Positions 8,255 to 16,066 of a stretch of DNA of 56,619 nt are shown here, in pieces. The stretch's first letter is position 1. Each line of letters opens with the position of its first letter. Source of the DNA: Nitrospirota bacterium (GTDB lineage Bacteria > Nitrospirota > Thermodesulfovibrionia > Thermodesulfovibrionales > JdFR-88); NCBI GenBank assembly GCA_014874185.1, contig JACWAF010000018.1:1-56619 (forward strand). The letters run 5' to 3'. Both the position numbers and the translations under genes were made by a program. The notes under the pieces are model-generated. The model saw nothing but the letters and a program-made list of their open reading frames with translations, had not been told where the DNA came from and ran no database searches.

Positions 8255-9646
8255 CTAGTCTTTCGCGTGGCATTTGTTGCAGAGCTGTCTCTGGTAGGCG
8301 GCCCATATCTTTTGCTGCCTGCCATAAAAGGCCTGCTGCACCTGAGCCTGGGTATAGCCCAGGTTGTAATCGCCCTTCTTGGCCTCCGCGCCGGAAGCGT
8401 CTATGCCGGGATACTCCCCTTGCACGACAAGGAACTCGCTCTGGGTGTTCCATCTGGCGCCTTTGAACCATGCGGACGCGTGCGCCCTGTGGCAGGAGAG
8501 GCACATGACAACTTCCTTGCCGGTAATCGGGCCGGTGGTTTTTGAGCCGTCACTAACCGCACGGGTTGCCAGGTCGGCGTAGTTGGCCTGGTTCAGCGGC
8601 AGGCCTTCCTCGTAAGGGACCAGCGAGAGATAGGAGGTCGACTGGGTGCCGGTAAGATTGCCCGAGTTTACGTATGCGTTGTACTTCTGGGCGATGCTTA
8701 CGCCAGATGAGTCGGTGATGCTGAGCAGGGCGTCCGCGACCTCGCCGGTCGGGTGTTCTTTGGTCGTGGGATAGTTCGGGTTGTGGATGGACGCATGGCA
8801 GTTGGAGCACCACTCGGCCATGCCGTATCCGTATGCAACCCTGGTATCGGTCAGACTCTCGGACCTGTTATAGTCAGCGGGCGCGAAGGCGAACGGGGAG
8901 GGCTGAGTGAAGGCTGCGCCTGAAGTGCCGCTCAGGGAATCGGGCAGATAGCCCACGCCGCCCAGAAGCCTGTAGACGCCGACGGAGTTGCCGTTGCCCG
9001 GGAGGACTGTCCCGTAAGAACCGGAGGCGATGATCGGGCCCACGCTCTTGCCGATAGCGGAAACCACCTCGGTATAAGTGCTGTCAATCCTGTACCTGCC
9101 GTGCGGATCGTGGCAGGAAGAGCAGTACAGGTCCGCTGTTGGGTAGTTGCCGCCCGGGGAAAGCGTATAATCTGTCCTGGCAATGAGACCGAAGTCGGCG
9201 GCCACGATATTATGCCCTCGGTCTATGGCCCTGTTGGTCTCTGATACAGTGATGCCGGCCGCATTGGTAATGCTGTACGTGATGTCTGGCACCTTCAGCC
9301 ATGCGAAGTCGCCGCCCGGGGTCAGCTCTTGTGGCACGAAGCTGCCGGCCACCGCCGAGGCGCTGACGGTAGACATTATGTGCCAGCCCGTGGGGATGCT
9401 GTCGTTGGATGCGTGGCAGTTAAGGCAGGTGGAACTCTGGTCGCTGCCCGTCAGCAGGAAGGCATGGCCGTTGAACTGGGTTGCGCCCGCAGTTGTGGTT
9501 ACCGGCAGATTCGATTCTGAATTGTGCATCGTGTGGCATCCCTCACAATAGGCAACGCCGCCGTCGTGGAAAGCGAGTGCCGTCCCGCCAGGACCGAAAG
9601 TTATTAGGGCTGATATAATAAAAGGCAACAGTTTGAAAGTTTTCAT
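8255..9646 (-). CDS. Exported six-heme cytochrome c
   Basis: This 463-aa protein has a signal peptide (MKTFKLLPFIISALITFGPG to about residue 25) and six CxxCH heme-binding motifs: CEGCH (C34-H38), CLNCH, CSSCH, CSNCH, CLSCH and CNKCH, the last at the extreme C terminus. It is predicted to be periplasmic or outer-membrane-associated, carrying electrons in anaerobic or extracellular respiration, but its partners cannot be read here. I chose the ATG at 9646 behind AAGGAGATGAT because it starts the signal peptide. The frame is open 39 codons further, to a TTG at 9763 with its own AGGAGGTGA. It is followed by the Clp1-like gene. Confidence 0.88.
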   Translation of the reverse strand: MKTFKLLPFIISALITFGPGGTALAFHDGGVAYCEGCHTMHNSESNLPVTTTAGATQFNGHAFLLTGSDQSSTCLNCHASNDSIPTGWHIMSTVSASAVAGSFVPQELTPGGDFAWLKVPDITYSITNAAGITVSETNRAIDRGHNIVAADFGLIARTDYTLSPGGNYPTADLYCSSCHDPHGRYRIDSTYTEVVSAIGKSVGPIIASGSYGTVLPGNGNSVGVYRLLGGVGYLPDSLSGTSGAAFTQPSPFAFAPADYNRSESLTDTRVAYGYGMAEWCSNCHASIHNPNYPTTKEHPTGEVADALLSITDSSGVSIAQKYNAYVNSGNLTGTQSTSYLSLVPYEEGLPLNQANYADLATRAVSDGSKTTGPITGKEVVMCLSCHRAHASAWFKGARWNTQSEFLVVQGEYPGIDASGAEAKKGDYNLGYTQAQVQQAFYGRQQKIWAAYQRQLCNKCHAKD

Positions 9647-11839: not shown

Positions 11840-12614
11840 AGAAAAAAATAAGGCAGACATCCCGTCCAGGAAGGGACAGAAGGAGCCCCCGCGCAGGGAG
11901 CACATGAAGAAAGGCATCTACATCCTCCCCAACACGCTCACCCTGATAGGGATGTTCGGCGGGTTCTTCGCCATCATAATGGCCATAGAGGGGCGGTTCG
12001 TCTGGGCGGCCTGGGCGGTGCTGGCCTCAATGATATTCGACGGCCTGGACGGGTTCATCGCCAGGCTTACGGGCAGCAACACCCGCTTCGGGATAGAGCT
12101 TGATTCCCTGTCGGACCTGGTGGCATTCGGCCTGGCCCCGGCAATAATCATCTATCAAAGCTCGATAGCGCCCTTTGGCAGGGCTGGATGGCTTGCCGCG
12201 TTTTTGTACGTGGCCTGCGGCGCCCTGCGGCTTGCCAGGTTCAACATACAGATGGTGACCACGGAGAGAAAGTCCTTCATGGGCGTGCCCATCCCCGGGG
12301 CGGCAACCGTGCTGATGACACTCATAATCTTCTGCAACGAGCGCGGGATAGACCCGAAAGGGAGCGTCTTCGTGCTGGTCCTCACGTTTGTGCTCTCGCT
12401 CCTGATGGTGAGCACCCTGCGTTTTCACGGGGCCAAGGAGATAAACTTCAAGAGGCGCAAGCCGTTCTGGATACTTGTGAGCCTGGTGCTTATCTTCGTG
12501 ATAATCGCCATCCGCCCGGAGATAGCCTTGTTCCTGTTTGCCATGCTCTACCTTGCAATAGGTATAATAGAGAATATTTATCTTTTCGCGAGGAGGAGAA
12601 GAAAGCCGGCATGA
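11832..12614 (+). CDS. pssA: CDP-diacylglycerol-serine O-phosphatidyltransferase
   Basis: This 260-aa integral membrane enzyme makes phosphatidylserine from CDP-diacylglycerol and serine. The CDP-alcohol phosphotransferase motif is complete: DGLDGFIARLTGSNTRFGIE followed by LDSLSD, with all conserved Asp, Gly and Arg in register. About eight hydrophobic segments follow a polar N terminus of roughly 25 residues (EEKNKADIPSRKGQKEPPRR). The internal Met at residue 25 (MKKGIYILPN) is a possible alternative start. It works directly before Psd in phospholipid synthesis. Its stop overlaps leuA by ATGA. Confidence 0.93.
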   Translation: MAEEKNKADIPSRKGQKEPPRREHMKKGIYILPNTLTLIGMFGGFFAIIMAIEGRFVWAAWAVLASMIFDGLDGFIARLTGSNTRFGIELDSLSDLVAFGLAPAIIIYQSSIAPFGRAGWLAAFLYVACGALRLARFNIQMVTTERKSFMGVPIPGAATVLMTLIIFCNERGIDPKGSVFVLVLTFVLSLLMVSTLRFHGAKEINFKRRKPFWILVSLVLIFVIIAIRPEIALFLFAMLYLAIGIIENIYLFARRRRKPA

Positions 12615-14122
12615 GGCAGGTAAGGATCTTCGATACCACGCTCAGGGACGGGGAGCAGTCCCCCGGGGCGAGCATGAATGTTGAAGAGAAGGTACAGTTG
12701 GCAAAACAGCTTACCCGCCTTGGGGTGGACATCATAGAGGCGGGTTTCGCCATAAGCTCTCAGGGCGACTTCGACGCCATAAAAAGGATAGGCGATGAGG
12801 TGAATGGGCCCGTTGTCGCAAGCCTTGCCAGATGCAGGGAGCCCGATATAAAAAAGGCCTTTGAGGCCCTGCGGGACGCGCCCAAAAAACGCATCCATAC
12901 GTTCCATTCCACATCGGACATCCATCTCAAGTACCAGTACAGGATTGACCGCGAAGAGGCATTGAAGAGGTCCGTTGAGATGGTCCGGTACGCGCGGAGC
13001 CTTGTGGAGGACGTGGAGTTTTCCCCGATGGACGCAACGCGCACCGATCCGGCATACCTGGCCCAGGTGGTGGAGGCCGTGATCGATGCCGGGGCAAGCA
13101 CTGTGAACATCCCGGACACGGTTGGTTATGCCATTCCGGCCGAATTTGCCGAGCTTATAGGATACCTGACGAAGAACGTAAAGAACATGGACAGGGCGGT
13201 CATCTCGGTCCATTGCCATAACGACCTGGGGCTTGCCGTGGCAAACAGCCTGGCGGCGGTGGCGGCCGGGGCGGGGCAGGTGGAATGCACCATAAACGGC
13301 ATCGGCGAGCGCGCGGGCAATTCCTCGCTGGAAGAGATCGTCATGGCCCTCCGCACCCGAAGGGACTTCTTCCAGGCGGACACGAATATAAACACGGAAG
13401 AGATAATCCGCACAAGCCGGCTGGTCACGAAGATAACCGGCATCTCCGTTCAGCCAAACAAGGCCATCGTTGGGGCCAACGCCTTCGCACACGAGAGCGG
13501 CATCCATCAGGACGGGCTTCTGAAAGAGAAGACCACCTACGAGATCATCCGGCCCGAGTCCATAGGCTTGCACAGCACCAAACTGGTGCTTGGAAAGCAC
13601 TCCGGAAGGCACGCATTCAAGACCAGGCTGAAGGAGCTTGGGCACGAGCTTACGCCCGAGGAGTTCGAGGTGGCCTTCGATAGGTTCAAACACCTTGCCG
13701 ACCAGAAGAAAGAGATTTACGAAGAGGACATAGAGACACTTATCTCCGAGCAGATGGCGAAGGCGCCGGAGGTGTATTCCCTTGTTGATATGAGCATCGC
13801 AAGCGGGATAGGGCAGGCCCCCACGGCAACGGTGAAGCTCAAGGTGAACGATGACCTCGTGGACCGGATGAGCCGGGGAGACGGCCCTGTGGACGCCACA
13901 TACAAGGCCATCGCGGAGATAACGAAGACAAAGAGCACGCTGAAGAGGTTCGAGGTCAAGAGCATCACGGGCGGGATGGACGCCCTGGGCGAGGTGAGCG
14001 TTGTGGTTGAAGAGGGCGACCGCACCGTCCGCGGGCACGGCGCGGACACGGACATCATAATTGCCGCCGCCAAGGCCTACATTAACGCCCTCAACAAGCT
14101 GGCCCAGAAGAAGAAAAGCTGA
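12611..14122 (+). CDS. leuA: 2-isopropylmalate synthase
   Basis: This 503-aa enzyme condenses acetyl-CoA with 2-oxoisovalerate, the first committed step of leucine synthesis. Motifs are FDTTLRDGEQSPGASM at the N terminus, the metal site VHCHNDLGLAVANS, GERAGNSSLEEIVMAL and HESGIHQDG. The C-terminal regulatory LeuA dimer domain is present (about residues 370-500), so leucine feedback inhibition is likely. I chose the ATG at 12611, which overlaps the pssA stop as ATGA. A longer in-frame stretch upstream is only a shadow of pssA. Partner leuC lies 36 kb away; leuB and leuD are not in the window. Confidence 0.96.
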   Translation: MRQVRIFDTTLRDGEQSPGASMNVEEKVQLAKQLTRLGVDIIEAGFAISSQGDFDAIKRIGDEVNGPVVASLARCREPDIKKAFEALRDAPKKRIHTFHSTSDIHLKYQYRIDREEALKRSVEMVRYARSLVEDVEFSPMDATRTDPAYLAQVVEAVIDAGASTVNIPDTVGYAIPAEFAELIGYLTKNVKNMDRAVISVHCHNDLGLAVANSLAAVAAGAGQVECTINGIGERAGNSSLEEIVMALRTRRDFFQADTNINTEEIIRTSRLVTKITGISVQPNKAIVGANAFAHESGIHQDGLLKEKTTYEIIRPESIGLHSTKLVLGKHSGRHAFKTRLKELGHELTPEEFEVAFDRFKHLADQKKEIYEEDIETLISEQMAKAPEVYSLVDMSIASGIGQAPTATVKLKVNDDLVDRMSRGDGPVDATYKAIAEITKTKSTLKRFEVKSITGGMDALGEVSVVVEEGDRTVRGHGADTDIIIAAAKAYINALNKLAQKKKS

Positions 14123-14252: not shown

Positions 14253-14501
14253 ATGGGTTATACGAATGTCGCTTTAAAAGACAAGATAATGGAGATGTAT
14301 CCGGAGATCCCGGCGCACAGGATATCGGTGGGCCTGGATTTCAACCCGGAGAAGAACGCCTATATCGTGAAGCTCAAGAAGAATACGCACGAGCTAACGA
14401 CTCACATTGAAAAGAAAGACGCGGACGAGTGCATGGACGGCATTAAATGCATCTACCTGGGCGTGCAGATAGGGCAATTCATAAAGAATTTTGAAGAATA
14501 G
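14253..14501 (+). CDS. Hypothetical protein (82 aa)
   Basis: I do not recognise this small soluble protein. It starts MGYTNVALKDKIMEMYPEI, has a central beta-like stretch (SVGLDFNPEKNAYIVKLKKN) and ends with a helix-like GVQIGQFIKNFEE. It has two Cys (in DECMDGIKCIYLG). There is no signal peptide or membrane segment. AAAGGGGGCG supplies a ribosome site. It stands alone, with 130 bases after leuA and a two-sided terminator just beyond its stop. Readthrough from the opposite-strand riboswitch would run antisense to it. Confidence 0.7.
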   Translation: MGYTNVALKDKIMEMYPEIPAHRISVGLDFNPEKNAYIVKLKKNTHELTTHIEKKDADECMDGIKCIYLGVQIGQFIKNFEE

Positions 14502-14507
14502 ATATAA

Positions 14508-14536
14508 AAAGGGCCAGTCCATCGGACGGGCCCTTT
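14508..14536. terminator. Bidirectional terminator shared by the 82-aa gene and the riboswitch RNA
   Basis: AAAGGGCC and GGCCCTTT form an 8-bp stem, continued past one A-G mismatch by GTCC/GGAC around an ATC loop. On the minus strand the stem is followed by TTTTTAT, a good terminator tail for the riboswitch transcript. On the plus strand the tail is weaker (TTTAT). Confidence 0.8.
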
Positions 14537-14543
14537 ATGATTC

Positions 14544-14636
14544 CTGCCACCTCAGCAACCCCTCTTTCCGGTTCGCACCGGACAGGTAGCTTTGCGCCAT
14601 ACGGTCTCCCGTATTTTACCCTTTATGGGGTGGCAG
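14544..14636 (-). ncRNA. Cyclic di-GMP-I (GEMM) riboswitch-like aptamer, orphan
   Basis: Read on the minus strand, CUGCCACC and GGUGGCAG close the element as an 8-bp P1. Inside come AAAGGGUAAAAUACGG, a GAGA tetraloop hairpin (AUACGG/CCGUAU), then GGCGCAAAGCUACCUG, a UCCGG/CCGGA hairpin and GGGGUUGCUGA. This follows the GEMM-I order: GGGCAAA, a GNRA-capped P2, GACGCAAAGCC, P3, GGGUUGCCGA. A terminator lies 8 bases downstream. No gene follows on this strand, and the element has its own promoter. The P3 tetraloop receptor is not clearly conserved, so ligand and affinity are open. Confidence 0.78.
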
Positions 14637-14653
14637 TCCCTGTTTCTGATTTA

Positions 14654-14682
14654 ATGATTGCACGCGGGCTAAGTACTGTCAA
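14654..14682 (-). promoter_or_regulatory. Promoter of the orphan riboswitch RNA
   Basis: Minus strand: TTGACA at 14682-14677, a 17-base spacer and AATCAT at 14659-14654 (4/6). Transcription would start near 14647, about 11 bases before P1. Confidence 0.6.
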
Positions 14683-14746: not shown

Positions 14747-16066
14747 CTAGCCACTTATCCGGGCCGCCCACTCCCTTGCCCTGGCAAGAATGGCCTGCTC
14801 GTCCGCGGCAAGGACCTTCCGCTCATGCATGAGGAGCTTTCCGTTTACCATCACGCTTTCAACGTCCGAGGGCAGCGCGGCATATACAAGGTGGGACCAG
14901 GCGTTATACATGGGCGTAAGCCTGGGCTTGTCCAGGTCCAGCATTATCAGGTCGGCGGCCTTGCCCTTTTTTATCGAGCCGGTCTTCCCGCCTAGCCCCA
15001 GTGCCTCCGCTCCCCAGAGCGTGGCCATTTTAATCGCGGTCCTCGATGGCAGGACGGTTGGGTCTTCGGAAAGGGCCTTATGGACCTTTGCCGATGTGGC
15101 AATCTCGCCCATTATATTCAGGTCGTTATTGCTGGCCGCTCCGTCCGTGCCGAATGTGACCTTCACTCCCCTCGCAAGCATCTTCGGCACAGGGGCGATT
15201 CCCGACGCAAGCTTCAGGTTGCTCTCAATGCAATGGGATACCCCGACTTCCCTCCGGGCGAGGATATCTATTTCATCGTCGTCCACCCAGACGCAGTGCG
15301 CGGCAACTATCCTCTTTGAGAGCACGCCAAGTTTTTCGAGAAATTTTATCGTGGTCTGCCCATAGAGCCTGTTTGATTCTTCGAGTTCCCACCTGGTCTC
15401 GGATACGTGGATCGGGATGATTATATTGTACTTTTCCGCAAGTCCGACCGCCTTCTTCAGGCTCTCCGGGCCGCATGTATAGACCGAGTGAGGGGCGATA
15501 GCGGGGCGTGTCAGTTCGTCTTTGAGGAAGTTTCTTATGAAGTCTTCCGCCCGTGCAAGATATTCTTCGCACGTCCTTGCCACCCTGGTGGGGAAGTCCA
15601 CGATCCCGGCGGCGATGACGGCCCGCATGCCCAGTTCTTTTACCGAACGGGCCGCGGATTCCCCGTAGAAGTACATGTCGCAGAACGTGGTTATGCCTGC
15701 TCTCATCATTTCAAGGCAGGCCAGGCGGGTGGCATCTTCCACGAACTCCGGCCCAAGCCATTTCGCCTCCAGGGGCCAGATGTGCTTTTCAAGCCAGTCC
15801 TTCAGCGGCAGGTCGTCCGCAATGCCTCTAAGGTACACCATCGGTGCGTGAGTATGGGTGTTCACGAACCCCGGCATCAGGAGCTTGTGCTCCCCGCCTG
15901 TTTCCATCGCGGGATCGTATTTGAGGGCCATCTCCGGATAGGGCCCAAGGTCGTGGATGAGCGCGCCTTTTACGGCGACGGCCCAGCCCCTTTCGGGTTC
16001 ATCGGATTCCAGTGTAAGGAGGTACCCGGCCTTAAGGAGGTAATCGACTTTTTCTTTAAGAGGCAT
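14747..16066 (-). CDS. mtaD: 5-methylthioadenosine/S-adenosylhomocysteine deaminase-like amidohydrolase
   Basis: This 439-aa metal-dependent hydrolase of the TrzA/AtzA/MtaD group deaminates adenosine-type nucleosides in S-adenosylmethionine salvage. Metal and catalytic motifs are PGFVNTHTHAPMVYLRG (HxH), IPIHVSETRWELEES, IVAAHCVWVDDDE and VTFGTDGAASNNDLN. The last is the form found in MTA/SAH deaminases. Length and the C-terminal KKGKAADLIMLDLD fit the family. Substrate assignment within the family is inference; other amidohydrolases look similar. It is alone on its strand, between two palindromic repeats. Confidence 0.85.
   Translation of the reverse strand: MPLKEKVDYLLKAGYLLTLESDEPERGWAVAVKGALIHDLGPYPEMALKYDPAMETGGEHKLLMPGFVNTHTHAPMVYLRGIADDLPLKDWLEKHIWPLEAKWLGPEFVEDATRLACLEMMRAGITTFCDMYFYGESAARSVKELGMRAVIAAGIVDFPTRVARTCEEYLARAEDFIRNFLKDELTRPAIAPHSVYTCGPESLKKAVGLAEKYNIIIPIHVSETRWELEESNRLYGQTTIKFLEKLGVLSKRIVAAHCVWVDDDEIDILARREVGVSHCIESNLKLASGIAPVPKMLARGVKVTFGTDGAASNNDLNIMGEIATSAKVHKALSEDPTVLPSRTAIKMATLWGAEALGLGGKTGSIKKGKAADLIMLDLDKPRLTPMYNAWSHLVYAALPSDVESVMVNGKLLMHERKVLAADEQAILARAREWAARISG

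Follow-up and report, generated by a model that had tools for sequence, protein, structure and literature searches.

The minus strand of the window (the whole stretch of DNA analysed here, 56,619 nucleotides from a Nitrospirota bacterium) very probably carries, judging from sequence signals and their conservation, the gene for a stand-alone small RNA without a cis target, in which a c-di-GMP-I (GEMM-I) aptamer lies between its own promoter and its own intrinsic terminator. The complete proposal is that a constitutively terminated RNA of about 140 nt would act in trans, soaking up or buffering c-di-GMP; it is put forward tentatively, at somewhat below even chances, and its stand-alone part is far safer than the sink role. 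Among the three roles first offered for this locus, a sponge or trans-acting RNA fits best.

The first-pass annotation had described a minus-strand promoter, a GEMM-I-like aptamer at 14636-14544 and a terminator, and this anatomy (Table 1) was right, as judged from the RF01051 model and the sequence itself. The covariance search that it proposed returned a match to RF01051 (c-di-GMP-I) at 14630-14551 (-) with 56.9 bits and an E value of 1.6e-8, against a gathering cut-off of 35 bits, and the match spans the full length of the model (all 87 positions). It is flanked by the strands of an extended P1, CUGCCACC (14636-14629) and GGUGGCAG (14551-14544). The spacer between the promoter boxes is 17 nt long and ends in TGC, and AATCAT is followed by TAAATCA. 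By itself this promoter is not significant (one found in 2.2 kb versus 1.5 expected); across the 2.43-Mb genome there are two occurrences of the exact composite pattern and none of its reversed control. The terminator hairpin begins 7 nt after the end of the aptamer, and the predicted fold of the RNA has a free energy of -60.5 kcal/mol (z -4.0 versus shuffles). The terminated 3' end is expected near 14503-14506, just before the stop codon of a convergent open reading frame for an 82-aa protein, with which the terminator is possibly shared.

Table 1 Features of the RNA locus and its flanking genes in the window
Feature	Position	Strand	Basis or remark
Extended -10 sigma70-type promoter	14654..14682	-	TTGACA 14682-14677, AATCAT 14659-14654
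5' leader, short	14637..14647	-	From sequence and leader comparison; putative start site ~14647
c-di-GMP-I (GEMM-I) aptamer with extended P1	14544..14636	-	RF01051, model R1, covariation
Intrinsic terminator hairpin	14508..14536	-	AAAGGGCCCGUCC-GAU-GGACUGGCCCUUU and U tail
Convergent 82-aa gene, no Pfam match	14253..14501	+	Outside the RNA unit
leuA	12611-14122	+	Opposite strand, beyond the 82-aa gene
Upstream amidohydrolase gene, co-oriented	14747..16066	-	Outside the RNA unit

As first annotated, no gene lies on the minus strand in the 2 kb beyond the terminator, where the sequence is only antisense to the next genes, the plus-strand 82-aa gene and leuA. The suggestion that the RNA is antisense to these two genes holds for the downstream region. 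However, the terminated transcript is predicted to end short of the 82-aa open reading frame, so that antisense to the coding sequence could arise from read-through only. Of the 176 genomes of the order, probably Thermodesulfovibrionales, 81 encode the 82-aa protein, with identity up to 84%. The stop codon of the upstream gene, whose product is probably an amidohydrolase of the mtaD/SAH deaminase type, lies 65 nt from the promoter of the RNA. In relatives, the 82-aa gene and the amidohydrolase gene sit apart from the RNA. Elsewhere in the window (8255-9646, minus strand) there is a gene for a secreted, multihaem cytochrome-like protein with several CxxCH haem-binding motifs, and look-alikes of it come after ordinary c-di-GMP-I riboswitches in one relative (G026).

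The c-di-GMP-I matches in relatives sort into distinct kinds. Two further matches in the window's own genome are both of the ordinary kind, while the stand-alone kind is marked by the extended P1, by CYACCU/AGAGGRG in P3 and by a terminator that follows closely. A custom covariance model, R1, was built from 11 RNAs of the stand-alone kind and run on 176 genomes of the order. Its top class comprised 16 loci in 13 genomes with 87-106 bits (102.1 bits for the window aptamer), loci which are not independent, all being from one order and five of them at one common locus; below it were one locus at 72 bits (G018) and a remainder at or below about 60 bits. Fragmented assemblies make up nearly all the genomes behind these counts, and every titled one is a MAG. 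Within the window's family, 10 of 12 genomes carry the R1 class; another family of the same order contributes three genomes, whose copies score 50.4-56.1 bits with RF01051. The family members in which it was not found are G003, in which c-di-GMP-I was not found at all, and G010, which is 82% complete. In two genomes (G004 and G008) the stand-alone RNA is the sole GEMM-I. Searching 396 genomes sampled across the phylum with R1 added nothing above 61.5 bits, and when one genome was scanned for each of 84,980 species, the exact pattern turned up in 14 stretches, all in Nitrospirota MAGs. The same scan of viral contigs gave no match and thus no sign of a phage origin. Since the majority of genomes of the order lack the RNA, it is not essential to the lineage.

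Conservation extends to the whole closed unit. A promoter could be aligned in 16/16 stand-alone loci, with TTGAC(A/T), a spacer of 16-17 nt that finishes with TG and one further base, and a -10 box followed in most cases by AATCA or a near variant. More than 100 exact matches to the composite pattern were counted in the 176 genomes versus two for its reversed control, which argues for a real promoter type in the order, although the pattern was derived from these RNAs and the matches at their own loci are not independent support. Among 20 loci with the pattern, a 6S RNA is present somewhere in the stretch in three and a tRNA in two; this is a co-occurrence in the stretch, and that the promoter type marks stable RNAs is a speculative idea. 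In all 16 loci an intrinsic terminator follows the aptamer match by no more than about 25 nt (the hairpin of G008 was assigned by hand). These observations bear on a further reading, in which the RNA would belong to the upstream gene, as its 3'-UTR or as a terminator module, and would not be an independent unit. That gene is indeed co-oriented in most contexts, but each of the 16 loci has its own promoter, the upstream gene is divergent in three of them (G002:C36a, G005 and G008) and upstream genes are unrelated across contexts, so that this reading is very improbable.

The aptamer itself shows covariation, with double-sided changes at 9 of 28 pairs, a value equalled in 0/500 shuffles, and sliding the pairing partners abolishes this signal. 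In the alignment 98% of the cells of the P1/P2/P3 junction fold are paired. Outside the fold little is kept. The leader is about 0 nt long in G004 and G007 and up to about 40 nt in G001, G009 and G011, with no conserved sequence; the short, largely A-rich linker varies in length and sequence among relatives, and the loops also show no sequence conservation among the stand-alone RNAs. Model position 11, which we take to correspond to the ligand-specifying base G20 of Vc2 (G in the c-di-GMP type, A in the cGAMP type), is G in 13 of 14 aligned members, the window included. The exception is the copy of G006 (L024 / L109, G006:C214), with an A at this position as in cGAMP-type GEMM-Ib; this copy may prefer cGAMP or otherwise differ in specificity.

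The first-pass annotation had also considered a riboswitch whose gene was lost. The window, having no downstream gene, would agree with such a decaying relic, but in 16 loci, spread over 13 genomes from two families, the aptamer, extended P1, promoter and terminator are intact and compensatory changes are present, and aptamer, promoter and terminator are conserved in at least 11 unrelated contexts. Hence this is the most improbable of the readings considered here. The view of the locus as an orphan aptamer forming its own transcription unit is supported by the sequence signals and generalises to 13 genomes.

The 16 stand-alone loci lie in 11 different gene neighbourhoods, which indicates that the RNA travels without a gene. 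The synteny check in relatives suggested by the earlier annotation agrees in most cases with the absence of a gene behind the aptamer: among the 16 loci the next downstream gene is convergent in 12, with a distance of 49-113 nt for 11 of these and 385 nt for the other, while one locus, at a contig end, gave no orientation. It does not hold throughout, because the next gene is co-oriented in the remaining three, one of them 841 nt away and the other two from a single genus (G005 and G008), in which a histidine kinase gene begins directly after the terminator. For ordinary GEMM-I copies of the same order, the next gene is co-oriented in 19 cases and opposed in five (Fisher p = 6e-4 versus the stand-alone kind); the counts come from a simple hexamer-based gene finder and the loci are related, so the p value is indicative. 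The convergent genes are unrelated to each other, and include the 82-aa gene, rplS (five genomes) and genes for GH57, a lipoprotein, a type III PKS, an EAL fragment, a Prc-like protease and an SDR, the lipoprotein and protease names being taken from reading the sequences. In the five genomes with convergent rplS (L110, L111, L112, L113 and L114), an 86-aa gene without a Pfam match lies upstream.

Whether the RNA could still switch a gene was considered from its possible pairings. In the ordinary GEMM-I kind, the 5' strand of P1 can pair with the 3' arm of the terminator (mean z -2.3 versus shuffled strands), and in a second sub-type, pairing involves the 5' arm instead (z -2.8). For the stand-alone kind, the same duplex test, which used mononucleotide shuffles and some hand-trimmed hairpins, found P1-terminator complementarity at the chance level in all three combinations (mean z -0.25 to -0.30). 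In view of this lack of pairing, termination should be independent of the ligand. Of the traits of a cis riboswitch, neither a close co-oriented downstream gene, save in G005 and G008, nor an expression platform mutually exclusive with P1 was found here. The second sub-type (L013, L017, L018, L026, L040 and L044; G010, G011, G001, G009 and G006) carries in many copies an AT-rich palindrome (e.g. TTGCAATTTTTAATTGCA) immediately 5' to the aptamer, whose own 5' strand, CGAAAAGGC, is complementary to the 5' arm of the terminator, and the sub-type is frequently without a close downstream gene.

These results leave it improbable that the RNA is a cis riboswitch with a missed target, whether this be an antisense transcript of a convergent gene or a small gene downstream, either reached by read-through. 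In the window, a transcript passing the terminator would run antisense to the 82-aa gene and to leuA, and the histidine kinase gene placed directly behind the terminator makes a cis role possible in G005 and G008. On the other hand, the convergent genes are unrelated between genomes, and P1 and the terminator do not form the mutually exclusive pairing seen in ordinary copies. The ligand-gated antisense RNA envisaged at first fails on similar grounds, as the convergent genes vary by genome and the terminator has no complementarity to P1. The idea that the 82-aa gene or leuA is under antisense control was likewise rejected, since the neighbours differ and no switch is visible.

In the proposed mechanism, the extended -10 promoter would drive synthesis of the RNA, which would fold as a c-di-GMP-I aptamer with an unusually long closing stem P1 and would be ended by the intrinsic terminator regardless of ligand. 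The product would control no neighbouring gene and would act in trans. A near-bare aptamer of this kind would bind c-di-GMP tightly and serve as a sink or buffer, setting the level of free c-di-GMP available to other receptors, among them the ordinary c-di-GMP-I riboswitches of the same genome. For such a role, the abundance of the RNA would have to match or exceed that of free c-di-GMP. The window's genome encodes 11 GGDEF domains, so it should make c-di-GMP. The sink or buffer is favoured because only the aptamer is kept, the leader and linker being variable, which suggests that ligand binding alone is needed. That the RNA is a dedicated, conserved buffer, its aptamer recruited as a signal sink and not as a gene switch, is proposed with rather more reserve than the scheme as a whole.

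The main rival to the sink is a ligand-gated regulator acting in trans, in which c-di-GMP would toggle binding of the RNA to a protein or to distant mRNAs. The stand-alone architecture fits it equally well, and Hfq is encoded in 12/12 genomes of the family. However, leader, linker and loops are unconserved and the leader is sometimes absent, which leaves no common seed region, and given the extended P1 there is little left to switch. This regulator is therefore considered unlikely, though it is the strongest of the alternatives. Riboswitch RNAs that act in trans carry a pairing or protein-binding part beside the aptamer. No conserved pairing or protein-binding region was found next to the aptamer across the stand-alone loci, where leader and linker vary. 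Riboswitches are recognised through a co-oriented downstream gene, and trans-acting cases exist but are rare (PMC7266159). In SreA/SreB (SAM, Listeria), EutX and Rli55 (AdoCbl), pairing regions or protein-binding sites adjoin the aptamer (PMC7266159). The RNA described here would resemble these in having its aptamer within a released small RNA, and action away from its own locus, known for them, is proposed here too; it differs in that almost only the aptamer is conserved and in its ligand class, c-di-GMP.

By score, fold and ligand-specifying G, the RNA appears to be a c-di-GMP-I member that departs from the class in its cis context. It shares with RF01051 riboswitches the aptamer sequence, the fold and the conserved junction residues including the G, whereas it has no co-oriented gene, no visible switching platform and a longer P1, and forms a closed unit with its own promoter and terminator. 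A c-di-GMP-I aptamer has likewise been counted as a small RNA in Clostridioides difficile, where RCd5, an RNA with a GEMM motif, is among the growth-phase-regulated sRNAs; in the accessible part of that report RCd5 is 398 nt long, comes from a single species and has an adjacent gene, CD1981, and a conserved closed unit is not described (PMC3649979). ModT, a raiA-motif RNA, is also a stand-alone structured RNA that affects cellular c-di-GMP, but it is unrelated, works via diguanylate cyclase expression and is not described as a c-di-GMP aptamer (PMC11706538). A literature search, mostly outside subscription journals, brought up no account of a c-di-GMP-I unit conserved without a gene. If the proposal is true, cells can employ RNA to keep hold of a second messenger, or to sense it, with no gene attached, which would be a reason to re-examine 'gene-less' riboswitch matches. 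The few trans-acting riboswitches retain, next to the aptamer, a region for pairing or protein binding, with which a closed bare-aptamer unit contrasts, and the choice between sink and trans regulator is a directly testable question.

Some loci of the stand-alone kind have unusual arrangements. In Nitrospirae bacterium Glo_13 (L125:3191-3388, minus strand), a new case among the 14 stretches of the species-wide scan, two aptamers lie in tandem before a single terminator, and no TTGAC promoter was found directly upstream. At L103 (G058:C19), the convergent short open reading frame matches only the C-terminal end of an EAL domain (c-di-GMP phosphodiesterase). L035 (G002:C36, 208896-211195) contains the RNA twice on one strand, the copies being separated by about 2.2 kb; they flank genes for a lipoprotein-like protein and an FKBP-type isomerase-like protein, which suggests that the pair arose by duplication.
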